Assembly: GCA_947447115.1 (NCBI GenBank)
Contig: CANFKD010000008.1
Coordinates: 1 to 38,595 of the forward strand
Source: Caulobacteraceae bacterium
GTDB lineage: Bacteria > Pseudomonadota > Alphaproteobacteria > Caulobacterales > Caulobacteraceae
Length of the DNA stretch: 38,595 nucleotides
Reading direction: 5' to 3'
Positions 5,982 to 23,055 of the stretch are shown piece by piece. The position numbers were made by a program, and so were the translations under genes. Position 1 is the stretch's first letter, and each line of letters begins with the position of its first letter. A model generated the notes under the pieces. That model did not search any database. It had not been told where the DNA came from and worked only from the letters and a program-made list of their open reading frames with translations.

Positions 5982-6872
5982 ATGGAGTCCCAGTTGGCCT
6001 ATAGTGAACAGATCTCGGCGCGGGCTCTCTCGAAGAGCATGAAGCGCGTGCTGATCGTTGATCCCAATCCTATGGCGGTCGACATCATGGTCGATCTGAT
6101 TCGACAGGTGGGTTTGGTTAAGATTTTTAAGACGGACCGGACCCACTACGGCTTTGAAATGGCGCGGGATATTAATCCCCATCTCATCATCACCGAGCTT
6201 GCGGCAGAGGGTTTCGATGGCCTCGACCTCGTTCGGGATATCCGACGCAGCGACATGGTCTGTCGCAAGGTGCCGATTATTGTCACGACGGCTGCCTCCA
6301 CCCGTCAGGCCATTGACCGCGCGCGGGATGCCGGGGTCCATGAATTCCTAGCCAAGCCCTTTACCGCCCATGATCTCTATCGACTGATTGAGGCCGCCGT
6401 CCTTCATGATCGCGATTGGGTGGAATGGTCAGACTATGTGGGACCAGAGCGAAGGCGCTTTAATTCCGGGGTCTATCATGGCAGGCTGAAGCGTGAATTT
6501 GACCAAGAACCGCCGACGACGCAGGAGCGCATGGGGGGTATCCTCATCCAGATGAAGGCGACCATTGAGCGGGTCGAGAGCGATCCAACGACCTCAGCGC
6601 GCGAACTTCTAAAGCAGGCAGAACAGCTCAGTGCCATCGGCCTAGAGATTCAAGACTTTGCGATCGGGCAGGCGGCTTTCGAGCTCAAGACCTTCGTCCT
6701 GTCGTCGGTAAAGGCCGGCGGATTGACGAAAGCCAATATGCGCAAACATGCGGCCAACCTCATGACCGCTATGTCTGCGATGGCCAGCGTCGGAACCCCG
6801 GTTCAAAATGCTGTTAGCAGCGGTTCTGGCCGAGAGAAGAGCCTGTCTGGCTCAAGGGTTCAGAGCCTTTAG
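5982..6872 (+). CDS. cleD: CleD-like CheY receiver with arginine-rich motif and CheE-like C-terminal half
   Basis: A 296-residue response-regulator-like protein. The receiver (about 20-143) has D27 and K125, but the phosphoacceptor position carries E72 (ITELAAEGFDG) instead of Asp. Next is an arginine-rich stretch, YVGPERRRF at 152-160 and HGRLKRE at 166-172, of the kind that binds cyclic di-GMP in Cle proteins, which act on the Caulobacter flagellar motor. Residues about 185-265 are helical and resemble CheE (22573-23055): a DP near 201, then IGQAAFEL at 228-235. Start ATG 5982 gives an N terminus the same length as CheYIII; ATG 6039 is possible. From memory, C. crescentus also has cleD near rpoH. 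The name is by similarity; cyclic di-GMP binding is inferred. Confidence 0.7.
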   Translation: MESQLAYSEQISARALSKSMKRVLIVDPNPMAVDIMVDLIRQVGLVKIFKTDRTHYGFEMARDINPHLIITELAAEGFDGLDLVRDIRRSDMVCRKVPIIVTTAASTRQAIDRARDAGVHEFLAKPFTAHDLYRLIEAAVLHDRDWVEWSDYVGPERRRFNSGVYHGRLKREFDQEPPTTQERMGGILIQMKATIERVESDPTTSARELLKQAEQLSAIGLEIQDFAIGQAAFELKTFVLSSVKAGGLTKANMRKHAANLMTAMSAMASVGTPVQNAVSSGSGREKSLSGSRVQSL

Positions 6873-15935: not shown

Positions 15936-18200
15936 GTGGATCCGTTAGAAGCGATCAAGGTCACATTCTTCCAAGAATGCGAAGAACAGCTGTCCGAGCT
16001 CGAATCAGGCCTCTTGGCCATGGAGCAGGGCGAGACCGACTCTGAGACCGTCAATGCCGTGTTCCGCGCCGTTCACTCGATCAAGGGCGGCGCTGGGGCC
16101 TTTAGTCTTGAGCCTCTGGTTCGCTTTGCCCACGTCTTTGAAACGACGCTAGATGATGTGCGAGCGGGCAAGCTCGCGCCCGATAACAATGTCGTCAAGG
16201 TCATGCTGCGCGCCGCCGATGTGCTGGCCGACCATGTCCGCGCGGCCCGTGATGGCGGAGTGGTTGAGGAGGCGCGCTCGCAGGAGCTCGCCTCAGCGCT
16301 CGAGGCCTTGAACGGTGAGGCCCCGCTGGCTCCAATCGCCAGCGAAGATTTTGACGATATGCCCGGCTTGGAATTTACCCCCCTGACCGTGTCGGATGAT
16401 GACGGGATTGGCGATGATTTCGGCTTTACGCCGCTGGCGGCGGGGATCATCGAGCTTGAGCCCGAGGGCCCGGCCCTGCGCCGCTGGACGGTGCACCTGC
16501 GACCCAAGAACGCCCTCTATGCTAAGGCCAATGAAACTGGCCTGCTGCTGCGAGAACTGAAGCGTCTTGGCGATATTCAGGTCTCGATCGACCCTGCAGA
16601 TCTTCCCGGCCTGGCAGAGTTGGAACCTGAACACGCCTATTTGAGCTGGACGATTGTCCTGACCACGGATCGCAGCCAATCGGACATTCAAGAGGTCTTT
16701 GAGTTTGTCGATGGCGACTGCGACCTGACCATTACGGCAGACGACGTCCCGAGCAGCCTCCCAGCGATGGGTGAGGCGAGCATCGATGAGCCCTTTGACG
16801 TCATGGCCCTGATCCAACAGGCCCAGGCCGATGTTCAAGCGGCCCCGGCAGCGGCCATCATGGCTGAGATCTTGGCCCCGGCAGCACCGGCACCGGTCTT
16901 TGCCGCCTCGGCACCGTCCATTCCAGTGCCCGTAGCGGCGACGGCTGCCGCTGCAGGTGTGGCGCCGGATGCGGCCCATGGTGCAGCGGCGCAGCAGGCG
17001 ACCATTCGGGTGGATCTGGACCGGGTAGACCGTCTCATCGATCTGGTCGGCGAGCTGGTCATCAACCAAGCCATGTTGGCCCAGCGCGTGACCGAGAGCG
17101 GTGTTCCGCGCTCTTCGAACATCGCCATGGGTCTGGACGATCTCGAGCACCTGACCCGCGAGATTCAAGACAGTGTGATGGCCATCCGCGCTCAGCCGGT
17201 CAAGTCGGTGTTCCAGCGTATGCCGCGTCTGGTGCGCGAAGTTGCAGCCATGACCGGCAAGCAGGTTCGTCTTGTGACTGAAGGCGAAGGCACCGAGGTT
17301 GATAAGACCGTTATTGAGCGCCTGACCGACCCCATCACCCACATGATTCGCAATGCCATCGATCATGGCCTTGAGCGGCCTGAGGTTCGGGTTGCTGCGG
17401 GCAAGGGCCCTGAAGGGACCGTGCGCCTATCGGCCGCCCATCGCAGCGGCCGGATCGTGATTGAGGTTTCCGATGACGGTAAGGGCATTGATCGGCCCCG
17501 CGTGCGCCAGATTGCCATTGATAAGGGACTGATCGAGGTCGATTCCAACCTCAGTGACGAGGATGTCGACAACCTAATCTTCATGCCCGGCTTCTCGACC
17601 GCCTCTTCGGTGTCTGACATTTCCGGACGCGGCGTCGGCATGGATGTGGTCAAGCGCTCCATTCAAGGGCTCGGCGGCCGGATCGCTATTACCTCGAGGC
17701 CCGGTCAAGGCTCGACCTTTACCTTGAGCCTACCCCTGACCCTTGCGGTCTTGGATGGCATGGTCGTCTCGGTCTGTGACCATACGCTGGTTGCGCCCCT
17801 GACTGCGATTATCGAAAGCCTGCAGCCTAAGGCTCAGGATGTGCGGGCCATAGGTCCGGACGCCTATGTCATTGCCATTCGCGACACCTACACCCCGCTA
17901 ATCGATGTCGGGGCTGTGCTGGGCTATCGGACCACGCCGCTCGATCCGACCAAGGGCGTGGCCCTTTTGGTCGAAGGCGAGGGCGGTGCGCGGGCGGCCT
18001 TGATGGTCGACGCCATTCAGGGCCAGCGGCAGGTGGTGATCAAGTCTCTTGAAGCCAATTACCGACAGGTCGAGGGTATTGCCGCCGCCACCATCCTTGG
18101 CGATGGCCGCGTGGCCTTGATCTTGGATGTCGACAATGTGGTAGCCGCCCGGCGACGGGAAAAGGCCCGCAGCGACGCGAAGCTGGCAGCGGCAGGTTAG
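15936..18200 (+). CDS. cheA: Chemotaxis histidine kinase CheA
   Basis: A 754-residue kinase that couples receptor signals to CheY and CheB. Domains: P1 phosphotransfer domain with H47 in [12 protein letters not shown]; a P2-like CheY/CheB docking region at about 185-280; an Ala/Pro-rich linker (about 285-350); P3 dimerisation (about 355-420, starting [19 protein letters not shown]); P4 ATPase with N473 in the N box (RNAIDHG), DDGKGID and GRGVGMDVV; and a C-terminal CheW-like P5. GTG start at 15936 with GGAG nine bases upstream. It should sit in the polar receptor array. Length and all boxes are intact. Confidence 0.97.
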
Positions 18201-20605: not shown

Positions 20606-20994
20606 TGCCAGCGGCCTCGGGAATTTCTGTTCTCATCGTAGACGACCAAATGACTATGCGCGCCTTGGTGCGCAATGGCTTGCAGCAGTTGGGCTTTACC
20701 GAATTTCGCGATGCCGTGGATGGTGAAGATGCGCTGCGTCAGCTCATTGCGCGGCCCAGCCATCTGGTTATATCCGACTTCAATATGCCCAAGCTGGATG
20801 GATTGGCCCTGTTGCGCGCTATCCGTGGCCATCCGCCGATTGCCAAGACTGCCTTCATCATGCTGACCGGCCGTGCAGACCGCGAGTTGGTGCAGCGCGC
20901 TGTGCAGTTCGGGGTCAATAACTATCTGGTCAAACCCTTCACCGTGACAATCCTGAAGGAAAAGATCGAAGCGGTCTTCGGGCCCCTCACATGA
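20605..20994 (+). CDS. cheYII: CheY response regulator (CheYII)
   Basis: A 129-residue single receiver with D13-D14, phosphoacceptor D58 (VISDFNMPKLDG), T88 and K110. It is the second canonical CheY of the cluster and in C. crescentus is considered a main motor-binding candidate. ATG at 20605 overlaps the cheB stop by one base, with GGGAGAGGG just upstream, and the end overlaps cheD by four bases. An earlier start inside cheB would add ten residues unrelated to the family. Confidence 0.92.
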   Translation: MPAASGISVLIVDDQMTMRALVRNGLQQLGFTEFRDAVDGEDALRQLIARPSHLVISDFNMPKLDGLALLRAIRGHPPIAKTAFIMLTGRADRELVQRAVQFGVNNYLVKPFTVTILKEKIEAVFGPLT

Positions 20995-21563
20995 GCCTCG
21001 TGTCACGCGAACAGGAGCCTCTTGCGCTGCCTGAACGACGTGTGCACGTGGTTCAGGGCGAGCACTATGTCACCGATGATGCCAGCGTCATGCTGACCAC
21101 CATCCTCGGTTCCTGCGTTGCCGCCTGTATTCGTGATCCCCTGGCCGGTCTGGGTGGAATGAACCACTTCCTGCTGCCCGGCGGGGAGGGTGAAGATGTG
21201 ACCACCGATTCTGTGCGGTACGGGGCCTATGCCATGGAGCTTCTGGTCAATGGCCTCCTGCGGCAGGGCGCGCGGCGTGAGCGCTTACAAGCCAAGCTCT
21301 TTGGCGGTGCGCGGGTCATCAGTGGCCTGACCGATATTGGCGATCAAAATGCCCGCTTCGCAGAGCGCTATCTGAAGCAGGAAGGGATCAGTTTTGCCGG
21401 CGGCAGCTTGGGCGGCGAACGGGCAAGGCGGATCCAATTCTGGCCCATTTCCGGTCGGGTCCGGCAGATGGCGCTAGCCAAGGATGAGGCCAGTGTGTTT
21501 GAAATCGAGCGGCGGACCAAGCCGTCTGCCCCGGTCGACTCCGGCGCGTTGGAGCTCTTTTGA
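20991..21563 (+). CDS. cheD: Chemoreceptor glutamine deamidase CheD
   Basis: A 190-residue enzyme that deamidates receptor glutamines to glutamates. The catalytic pair is visible: C42 in TILGSCVAACIRD and H59 in GGMNHFLLP, with the 17-residue spacing known from Thermotoga CheD. There is a full C-terminal domain. The last residues, SGALELF, form a short hydrophobic-acidic tail comparable to the end of CheU (GDVDLF). It overlaps cheYII by four bases. Confidence 0.93.
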   Translation: MSLVSREQEPLALPERRVHVVQGEHYVTDDASVMLTTILGSCVAACIRDPLAGLGGMNHFLLPGGEGEDVTTDSVRYGAYAMELLVNGLLRQGARRERLQAKLFGGARVISGLTDIGDQNARFAERYLKQEGISFAGGSLGGERARRIQFWPISGRVRQMALAKDEASVFEIERRTKPSAPVDSGALELF

Positions 21564-21565
21564 TC

Positions 21566-21961
21566 ATGACACCCTCAAGTCCCGTCCAAGCGCTCGGCTC
21601 TACGGATGGCCAGGTCTGTCTGTCCGAGGTGATTCAGACGGCTGCGCTTGAGGCCCGTGACCTTGCCGGCATGGGCAACCGGTTCCAAGGGCTGGTGGCG
21701 GAACTGATGGCATCCTCCCAAGGGGCCCATAGCGCAGAACGGATCGTTCAGGCCCAGGGTCTGGATTCCTTAATTCAGCGCCTATCGGCCCTATCGTCCT
21801 TTCTCGAAGCGCTTGGTCCGAGCCTGCCGCCCGAATGGAAGGTCAATCCGGCCCAAGCCAGTCAAAATCTAACCCTCGATCATTCCGTGCGCCGTTTTGG
21901 TCGCCGGGCCGAAGATCGTATTGCCGCGGCGACAAGGCCCGGCGATGTCGATCTGTTTTAG
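21566..21961 (+). CDS. cheU: CheU, probable CheT/CheZ-like CheY phosphatase
   Basis: A 131-residue mostly helical protein in the place of cheU in C. crescentus and of cheT (after cheD) in Sinorhizobium. I see a DxxxQ motif, D67 and Q71 in QGLDSLIQRL, inside a predicted helix. CheZ uses Asp and Gln in this spacing to remove phosphate from CheY; Sinorhizobium CheT was reported to carry the same motif. The C terminus, GDVDLF, resembles an acidic-aromatic docking tail such as that of CheZ. The phosphatase role is an inference. ATG 21566 was chosen; a TTG at 21560 overlapping the cheD stop has GGAG at better spacing and may be the true start. Confidence 0.6.
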   Translation: MTPSSPVQALGSTDGQVCLSEVIQTAALEARDLAGMGNRFQGLVAELMASSQGAHSAERIVQAQGLDSLIQRLSALSSFLEALGPSLPPEWKVNPAQASQNLTLDHSVRRFGRRAEDRIAAATRPGDVDLF

Positions 21962-21970
21962 GGGTCAAAC

Positions 21971-22576
21971 ATGGCGTCTCCCCCCACCAACCCTAAGGCC
22001 AAGATTAACCTCGAGCGGGCTACCGTTCTGTTGATGGAGGCCAGTCCTCAAGGCATGGACATTCTGGTTCAGGTGCTCAATGGATTTGGCGTGCGCACAC
22101 CGCTTCGGGCCATGTCTGGGGCGTCGGCCATGGAGATAGTCAAGAGCCATCTTCTCGACCTGATCATCGTCGATGCCCAGCTTTCAGACATGGACGGCTA
22201 TGATTTCGTAAAGTGGCTGCGGAGCTCAAAAATCGAGCCAAACTGCGCCGCGCCGGTGATTTTCATGTCCGGCCACACCCAAGTGTCGAATGTCACCAAG
22301 GGACGCGATTGCGGCGCAAGCTTCTTGGTCGCCAAGCCCATCGTGCCTCGCGTGCTTCTGGATCGGGTGATCTGGGTGGCCCGTGAAAATCGAATCTTTA
22401 TCGAGTGCCCCACCTATTCAGGCCCTGATCGCCGCTTCAAATTTGTTGGTCCGCCGCACGGGACCGAAGGGCGGCGCTCTGATGACCTGCCCCTCGAGGT
22501 GGGCACAGCCAATACACCGAACATGTCGCAAGACGCTATTGACTCATTGCTCCAGCCTCAGAAAGCACAGCTGTGA
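21971..22576 (+). CDS. cheYIII: CheYIII/CleA-like receiver with arginine-rich and FliM-like C-terminal motifs
   Basis: A 201-residue response regulator. The receiver (about 17-138) has phosphoacceptor D68 (LIIVDAQLSDMDG), S100 and K122; its first acidic pair is reduced (LLMEASPQ). It is followed by YSGPDRRFKF at 149-158 and HGTEGRR at 163-169, the same layout as in the CleD-like protein and typical of cyclic di-GMP binding Cle proteins. Near the end MSQDAIDSLLQ at 185-195 looks like the N-terminal peptide of the flagellar switch protein FliM (LSQxEIDALL), the CheY-docking site. AGGGG precedes the ATG. The name follows gene order; from memory the C. crescentus equivalent is CleA. Confidence 0.75.
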   Translation: MASPPTNPKAKINLERATVLLMEASPQGMDILVQVLNGFGVRTPLRAMSGASAMEIVKSHLLDLIIVDAQLSDMDGYDFVKWLRSSKIEPNCAAPVIFMSGHTQVSNVTKGRDCGASFLVAKPIVPRVLLDRVIWVARENRIFIECPTYSGPDRRFKFVGPPHGTEGRRSDDLPLEVGTANTPNMSQDAIDSLLQPQKAQL

Positions 22577-23055
22577 CGGTAACAAGACGCCGATTTGAAA
22601 ACCGGCTTTCCAAGTTGATCAAGCTTCCCGGCGGCAAGACCGTTCAAGAGGCCATGGACGATGCCGAAAGCAATATGGAATCCATCCGGGACAAGGTCTT
22701 GGGTGCGATGGACAAAAAGGTCCTTCAGCTTCTGGATAGTGCAGCGTCGGTGACGGCTGACCCCAATCCTGAGGCCCTGACCAATTGCTACAATGTCGCC
22801 AACGAAATCTTTGCCCTCGCCGGTGCCTTTGGTAAGGCGCAGATGGGCGAGGCGGCCTACAGCCTGTGCGAACTGATCGATCGGTCGCGTGAGGCGGGTA
22901 AGTGGAGCGACCCTGCCTTCCAAGCCCATATGAACGCCCTTCGGCTCATGCGCCATGATGAGACCGAAGAAGGCCAAGAGGCCCGCAAGGTCGTCTTGTC
23001 TGGGCTCAGAAGCGTTATTGATGCGGTGACCGGGCCGCCGCCCAAGCCGCGTTAA
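22573..23055 (+). CDS. cheE: CheE, last gene of the che operon
   Basis: A 160-residue helical protein in the place of C. crescentus cheE; its biochemical function is unknown. It has a basic N terminus (TRRRFENRLSKLIKLPGGK) and two helical segments; residues 82-120 include ADPNPEALTN and FGKAQMGEAAYSLCELI. The region from about 78 to 145 aligns by eye with the C-terminal half of the CleD-like protein (DP, G-x-AA-aromatic-x-L, then an H and M a similar distance on). No enzyme motif is visible. GTG at 22573 overlaps the cheYIII stop (GTGA), so the two proteins are probably made together in similar amounts. Confidence 0.65.
   Translation: MTVTRRRFENRLSKLIKLPGGKTVQEAMDDAESNMESIRDKVLGAMDKKVLQLLDSAASVTADPNPEALTNCYNVANEIFALAGAFGKAQMGEAAYSLCELIDRSREAGKWSDPAFQAHMNALRLMRHDETEEGQEARKVVLSGLRSVIDAVTGPPPKPR

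Follow-up and report, generated by a model that had tools for sequence, protein, structure and literature searches.

The closest described relatives of the locus analyzed here are the Cle proteins of Caulobacter crescentus. Binding of c-di-GMP and FliM was shown for both CleA (CC0440) and CleD (CC3100), neither of which requires phosphorylation (Nesper et al. 2017, PMC5677366). In the same work, CheYIII was named CleA, CheYII was found to be antagonised by CleA, and the C-terminal region of CleD was described as variable. Removal of this whole tail lowered the c-di-GMP affinity of CleD 5-fold, and removal of a part of it caused no loss (PMC5677366). The protein CheE is absent from the text of that paper. 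CheE (CC0441), encoded in the che operon, was still called 'hardly described' in 2023 (PMC10579534). In Phenylobacterium zucineum, three CheYIII-CheE pairs were found, one of them 'scattered' (PMC2529317).

The window, i.e., the whole analyzed stretch of 38,595 nucleotides from a Caulobacteraceae bacterium (contig CANFKD010000008.1), carries a cleD-like gene (P0001) at positions 5982..6872 of the forward strand, on which all features given below are located. This ORF begins with ATG, encodes 296 amino acids and lies between purA and rpoH, which is likewise the setting of cleD in a relative (L069). Residues 23-136 (6048..6389) constitute a receiver domain (Pfam Response_reg, 7.2e-17). Foldseek and VIA were queried with the full CleD and returned receiver domains only, and VIA matched CheY chains at Z about 19, so the domain is of the CheY type. 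Its phospho-Asp is missing and Glu72 stands at that position; glutamate was found in the D57 column of 23 of the 26 CleD proteins. The resemblance of this half to CheYIII, which had been noticed by eye, was confirmed (25% identity, E=7e-14). Downstream lies a predicted arginine-rich c-di-GMP-binding region (ARR; YVGPERRRF...YHGRLKRE, 6435..6506), in which YVGPERR at residues 152-158 fits the motif [YF]xGP[DE][RK]R (PMC5677366) and YHGRLKR is a second, degenerate repeat. From the low pLDDT at residues 158-175, the region is predicted to be disordered. The receiver and the ARR motif are thus shared with the Caulobacter proteins, as is the che-operon setting of cleA, and the tail is also found on CleD of other Caulobacteraceae (PMC5677366).

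The rest of CleD contains a CheE-like four-helix domain at residues 180-268 (6519..6785), which was delimited by hhalign to CheE and by the AF2 helices. The original prediction had aligned residues about 190-265 of CleD with residues about 78-145 of CheE, on the basis of a DP pair, a GxAA(F/Y)xL motif, and a G and an H/M pair at similar spacing with one single-residue gap. BLASTP reproduced this arrangement between CleD 184-256 and CheE 46-119 (22% identity, one single-residue gap), with DP at positions 201 and 63, GxAA(F/Y)xL at 229 and 92, and a histidine at 256 and 119, respectively. The alignment, the CleD numbering and the window coordinates were therefore correct, but the CheE numbering had been about 25-30 residues too high. 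The pairwise E-value of only 0.019 is weak alone, and middling structural scores are usual for helical bundles, as would be expected if the likeness were due to chance or to a generic helical-bundle signal. Profiles were built from 31 CleD tails and 30 CheE proteins found in 148 related genomes, a sample of one class. They were aligned by hhalign over 81 columns with one gap at a score of 34.2 (P=3.6e-5), against 19.4 for the best of 200 column shuffles and 16.4 for the reversed profile. The profile-profile comparison proposed as a check of the prediction thus scored above all shuffles, and the shuffles and the reversal rule out chance similarity. A generic HPt signal is also ruled out, since the tail profile, which matched both CheE and the fused-family domain described below (P=8e-6), had no match to the generic HPt170 (P=0.73) and CheA-P1 (P=0.21) profiles. 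Fused proteins were in turn matched by the CheE HMM with E-values down to 2e-9, and we regard a merely coincidental likeness as very improbable.

Single-sequence searches connected CheE with CleD of L016 (E=4e-4) and the CleD tail with CheE of L057 (E=1.8e-3), and the CheE HMM, run against 31 CleD tails, matched those of several genomes with E-values down to 2.9e-6. These data allowed us to conclude that CleD ~180-268 and CheE ~43-127 are homologous. Structure prediction of each protein agreed with the alignment: the AF2 helices of the tail (180-196, 202-222, 226-244 and 250-268; pLDDT about 90) coincide one for one with those of CheE after a one-residue offset, and CheE has a longer first helix and an extra last one. 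Because the tail spans helices A-D only, and helix E and the N-terminal PGG segment of CheE are absent from it, it was classed as CheE-like and not as a complete CheE. The tail alignment behind the AF2 model of CleD was thin (two CleD sequences, the others CleA), and the interdomain confidence was low (pTM 0.51). Neither the window CheE nor the CleD tail was matched in Pfam or NCBIfam, and the PDB sequence search, at the thresholds used, revealed no close relative, only CheA at E=0.87.

In the case of the tail, Glu214 occupies the phospho-His column and the helix-D His256 is retained. The latter residue is present in the window genus and in L007 and is missing from most other CleD proteins. 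The tail is weakly conserved in most Caulobacteraceae outside the window genus, and within the genus it is under purifying selection (dN/dS 0.04-0.19). Synonymous divergence between the cleD genes of L001 and L002 was 0.046 in the receiver and 0.504 in the tail, and between those of L003 and L004 the relation ran the opposite way. Both pairs look as if the tail had been swapped by recombination, or as if the assemblies were chimeric.

The window cheE gene (22573..23055, GTG start, 160 amino acids) is the orthologue of CC0441 by operon position (PMC2529317, PMC10579534), and its product is a putative five-helix, CheA-P1-like pseudo-HPt. The AF2 model (pLDDT 82) consists of helices 24-62, 66-86, 89-108, 113-127 and 132-153, and CheA P1 was the top match both in Foldseek (E 0.035) and in VIA (Z 12.4-13.7 over 116-129 residues). 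Helical bundles score easily in structure searches, and the HPt assignment is therefore carried by the sequence profiles. With hhalign, CheE matched CheA-P1 (96.6%, P=7e-10) and HPt170 (98%, P=8e-14). The CheE profile matched the HPt (P1) domain of CheA in the window (15945..16241, E=1.2e-5). Its matches further included CheA HPts from many alphaproteobacteria, as well as HPt proteins of ~170 aa that bear AHDLKGLG and form a family found across the class. Pfam Hpt was the sole family matched by several CheE proteins (9 of 19, below the cut-off). Judged by these profiles and by the model, CheE has a CheA-P1-type HPt fold without the phospho-histidine, an identity that was missed in the original prediction.

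Alignment with HDLKG/HSIKG proteins placed Asn77 (codon at 22801..22803) in the phospho-histidine column. No histidine was found in this column in any of the 51 cheE genes (0/30 in the first set and 0/21 among further copies), which is occupied by N in the window, while other copies carry N, S, D, A, G, R, K, L or C. CheE is thus seen, as far as sequence can tell, as a relative of the HPt fold that has lost the phosphorylatable histidine of the HxxKG motif and would not be a functional HPt by that route. Compared with CheA P1 and other HPt domains (PF01627; PDB 1i5n, 3kyi, 2lp4), the five-helix fold and profile homology are in common, whereas in CheE the phospho-His is replaced (N, S, D and others), CheE-type domains stand alone or are fused behind a c-di-GMP receiver, and the helix-D histidine is extra. 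This histidine (codon 119, 22927..22929) is invariant in 51/51 CheE. HPt170 paralogues that bear the phospho-His have it too, as do the tested fused proteins, and it is absent from CheA P1. HPt paralogues without a nearby ARR receiver kept the phospho-His in 15 of 15 cases, and CheE-like genes with an ARR receiver within 2 kb in 9 of 28, kinship not being corrected for in these counts. The source genome also encodes a 170-aa HPt protein (L108, G000:C19) of a type widespread in the class, with AHDLKGLG intact, which is likely an active paralogue of CheE. Relative to CC0441, what is new here is the HPt-type fold with the lost histidine; in the literature searched, we found no description of CheE as an HPt, or of the FliM-like motif in CleA described below. 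A search of viral contigs for CheE gave no match.

The site at which an HPt domain docks on a receiver lies close to the Asp pocket (PDB 3kyi is a complex of CheA3 P1 with CheY6), and the docking face of CheY-type receivers is where FliM binds. The reading that we consider probable is that the CheE-type domain, as a dead HPt, regulates the Cle receiver as its pseudo-HPt partner, either from a separate chain or within the same one. Docking on the receiver would have been kept and the phosphotransfer chemistry lost, which would turn the pseudo-HPt into a regulatory partner, with CheE acting on CleA in trans and the CleD tail on the CleD receiver in cis. CleD would be the one-chain version of the CleA-CheE pair, in which a phosphorylation-independent receiver and a c-di-GMP-binding arginine-rich peptide are followed by a CheE-like pseudo-HPt domain. 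The dead HPt could occupy the receiver during c-di-GMP and FliM binding, and it may stabilise the receiver and ARR in the c-di-GMP-bound, FliM-binding form or keep them out of it. We infer the binding of CheE to CleA, the docking in cis within CleD and the effect on the motor; the docking need not be general, because the tail is weakly conserved and without H256 in most Caulobacteraceae outside the genus. A precedent is provided by plant pseudo-HPts (AHP6/PHP1 and the rice PHPs), which are likewise non-phosphorylatable HPt family members and bind response regulators without phosphotransfer, as the rice proteins do (PMC12115143). This is a works-like comparison only, as theirs is a different phosphorelay with no c-di-GMP and no fusion.

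The gene order bears on which receiver is the partner. The cleA gene (cheYIII, 21971..22576) encodes a receiver with the ARR motif YSGPDRRF and overlaps cheE by 4 nt (GTGA at 22573-22576). The contrast originally drawn between one chain at the cleD locus and two overlapping genes in the che operon therefore stands, with a CheE-like tail and a CleA-type receiver on one side and the 4-nt overlap on the other. Among the Caulobacterales, 47 of the 51 cheE genes lie directly behind a gene for an ARR receiver (30/30 in the first set, 17/21 among further copies), mostly at a distance of a few nt. As for the others, the cheE of L159 follows a receiver with a slightly altered motif, that of L161 a receiver without the motif, and no receiver was found in the fetched flank of two. 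In L069 (3377-5541), purA, cleA, cheE and cleD follow one another with rpoH beyond, so that the pair and the one-chain form adjoin. Across the Alphaproteobacteria at large, the pair of an ARR receiver and a CheE-like protein occurs both with and without the histidine. The near-universal linkage in Caulobacterales strengthens the prediction that CheYIII (CleA) and CheE bind each other; that CheE acts in the Cle pathway was already implied by its operon position, since CheYIII is CleA.

In the main alternative, the partner is not their own Cle receiver: CheE and the CleD tail would serve as decoy P1 domains for the ordinary CheYs of chemotaxis (or for CheA/CheB). Phosphorylation of CheYII would then be prevented, or CheYII would be brought near the motor, and the antagonism of CheYII by CleA and CleD would be explained. 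The nearest fold to CheE is that of CheA P1, whose partners are CheY and CheB; cheE is a che-operon gene, CheYII is antagonised by CleA (PMC5677366), and the cheE of L150 comes after a CheW-like ORF, with no ARR receiver. However, an ARR receiver gene also precedes the scattered copies of cheE that lie away from che operons (see also PMC2529317), and the CleD fusion joins the domain to an ARR receiver. We consider a decoy role unlikely.

The C-terminus of CleA, MSQDAIDSLL (22523..22552), is similar to the N-terminal CheY-binding motif of FliM. CleA ends in NMSQDAIDSLLQPQ and FliM of the source genome (L149) begins with RILNQEEIDSLLGF, and the two are close. Most Caulobacteraceae CleA proteins share this conserved end, as do some further ARR receivers of alphaproteobacteria, and it is absent from CleD. 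The sequence could represent a CheY-binding mimic, which would explain the antagonism of CheYII by CleA, or an autoinhibitory peptide. The end of CleA also resembles the C-terminus of CheZ. Similar LF ends were seen in CheD (20991-21563), which ends in ALELF, and in the neighbouring CheU-like protein (21560-21961), which ends in GDVDLF.

The tail of CleD could also be a structural or oligomerisation helper that raises the c-di-GMP affinity of the ARR, its HPt ancestry being no longer relevant. Such a role is consistent with the 5-fold affinity cost of losing the whole tail but not a part of it (PMC5677366), and with its low sequence conservation outside the genus. It does not account for the separate cheE retained beside cleA in almost every genome with a cheE gene, nor for the HPt fold and helix-D histidine retained in CheE, and we find it improbable.

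Further REC-ARR-CheE chains, which like the CheE kinship and the HPt fold are absent from the text of PMC5677366, were found in two families of the same order (f3 and f4). Their ~300-aa REC-ARR proteins have C-terminal halves that match the CheE HMM with E-values down to 2.2e-9 and, unlike the CleD tail, extend to helix E. In hhalign, the profile of this fused domain reached 96.6% (P=7e-10) with CheE and 84% (P=8e-6) with the CleD tail, which shows that natural fusions of this kind exist. In the tree of receivers and ARRs, CleD formed one clade (support 99) grouped with the fused receivers (92), and CleA fell among receivers with CheE-like neighbours. Constrained trees gave a better likelihood for CleD with the fused receivers; joining CleD and CleA was 24.9 log units worse but was not rejected by the AU test (p=0.187). 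The CleD receiver is thus placed closer to the fused receivers found in sister families than to the local CleA, and CleD is probably an old fused lineage. The proposed natural fusion of CheYIII-like and CheE-like parts holds for both parts, but a recent fusion of the local cleA and cheE is disfavoured by the receiver tree.

Receivers adjoining a His-bearing partner had the Asp in 10/10 cases, and the partner lacked the His in all 13 cases in which the receiver lacked the Asp; several rows are close relatives and the counts are not independent. This pattern suggests that the His was lost first and the Asp later, which fits with CleA and CleD acting without phosphorylation (PMC5677366). The window CleA retains its phospho-Asp, a point against the pseudo-HPt reading given above. 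A wider scenario, which we put forward tentatively, is that a phosphorelay of receiver and HPt was converted as a pair, and its docking re-used as a c-di-GMP-gated motor switch. The two-gene form would be cleA-cheE, the one-chain form CleD and the sister-family fusions, with related pairs across the Alphaproteobacteria.

In consequence, CheE, a chemotaxis-operon protein without a known role, receives a fold, a reason why it should not be able to transfer phosphate and a likeliest partner, and the 'variable' C-terminus of CleD finds its explanation as a CheE-like region. The question raised is whether a CheY that is driven by c-di-GMP and free of phosphorylation is controlled by a dead HPt. In that case, second-messenger signalling at the flagellar motor would have taken over a contact from a phosphorelay.
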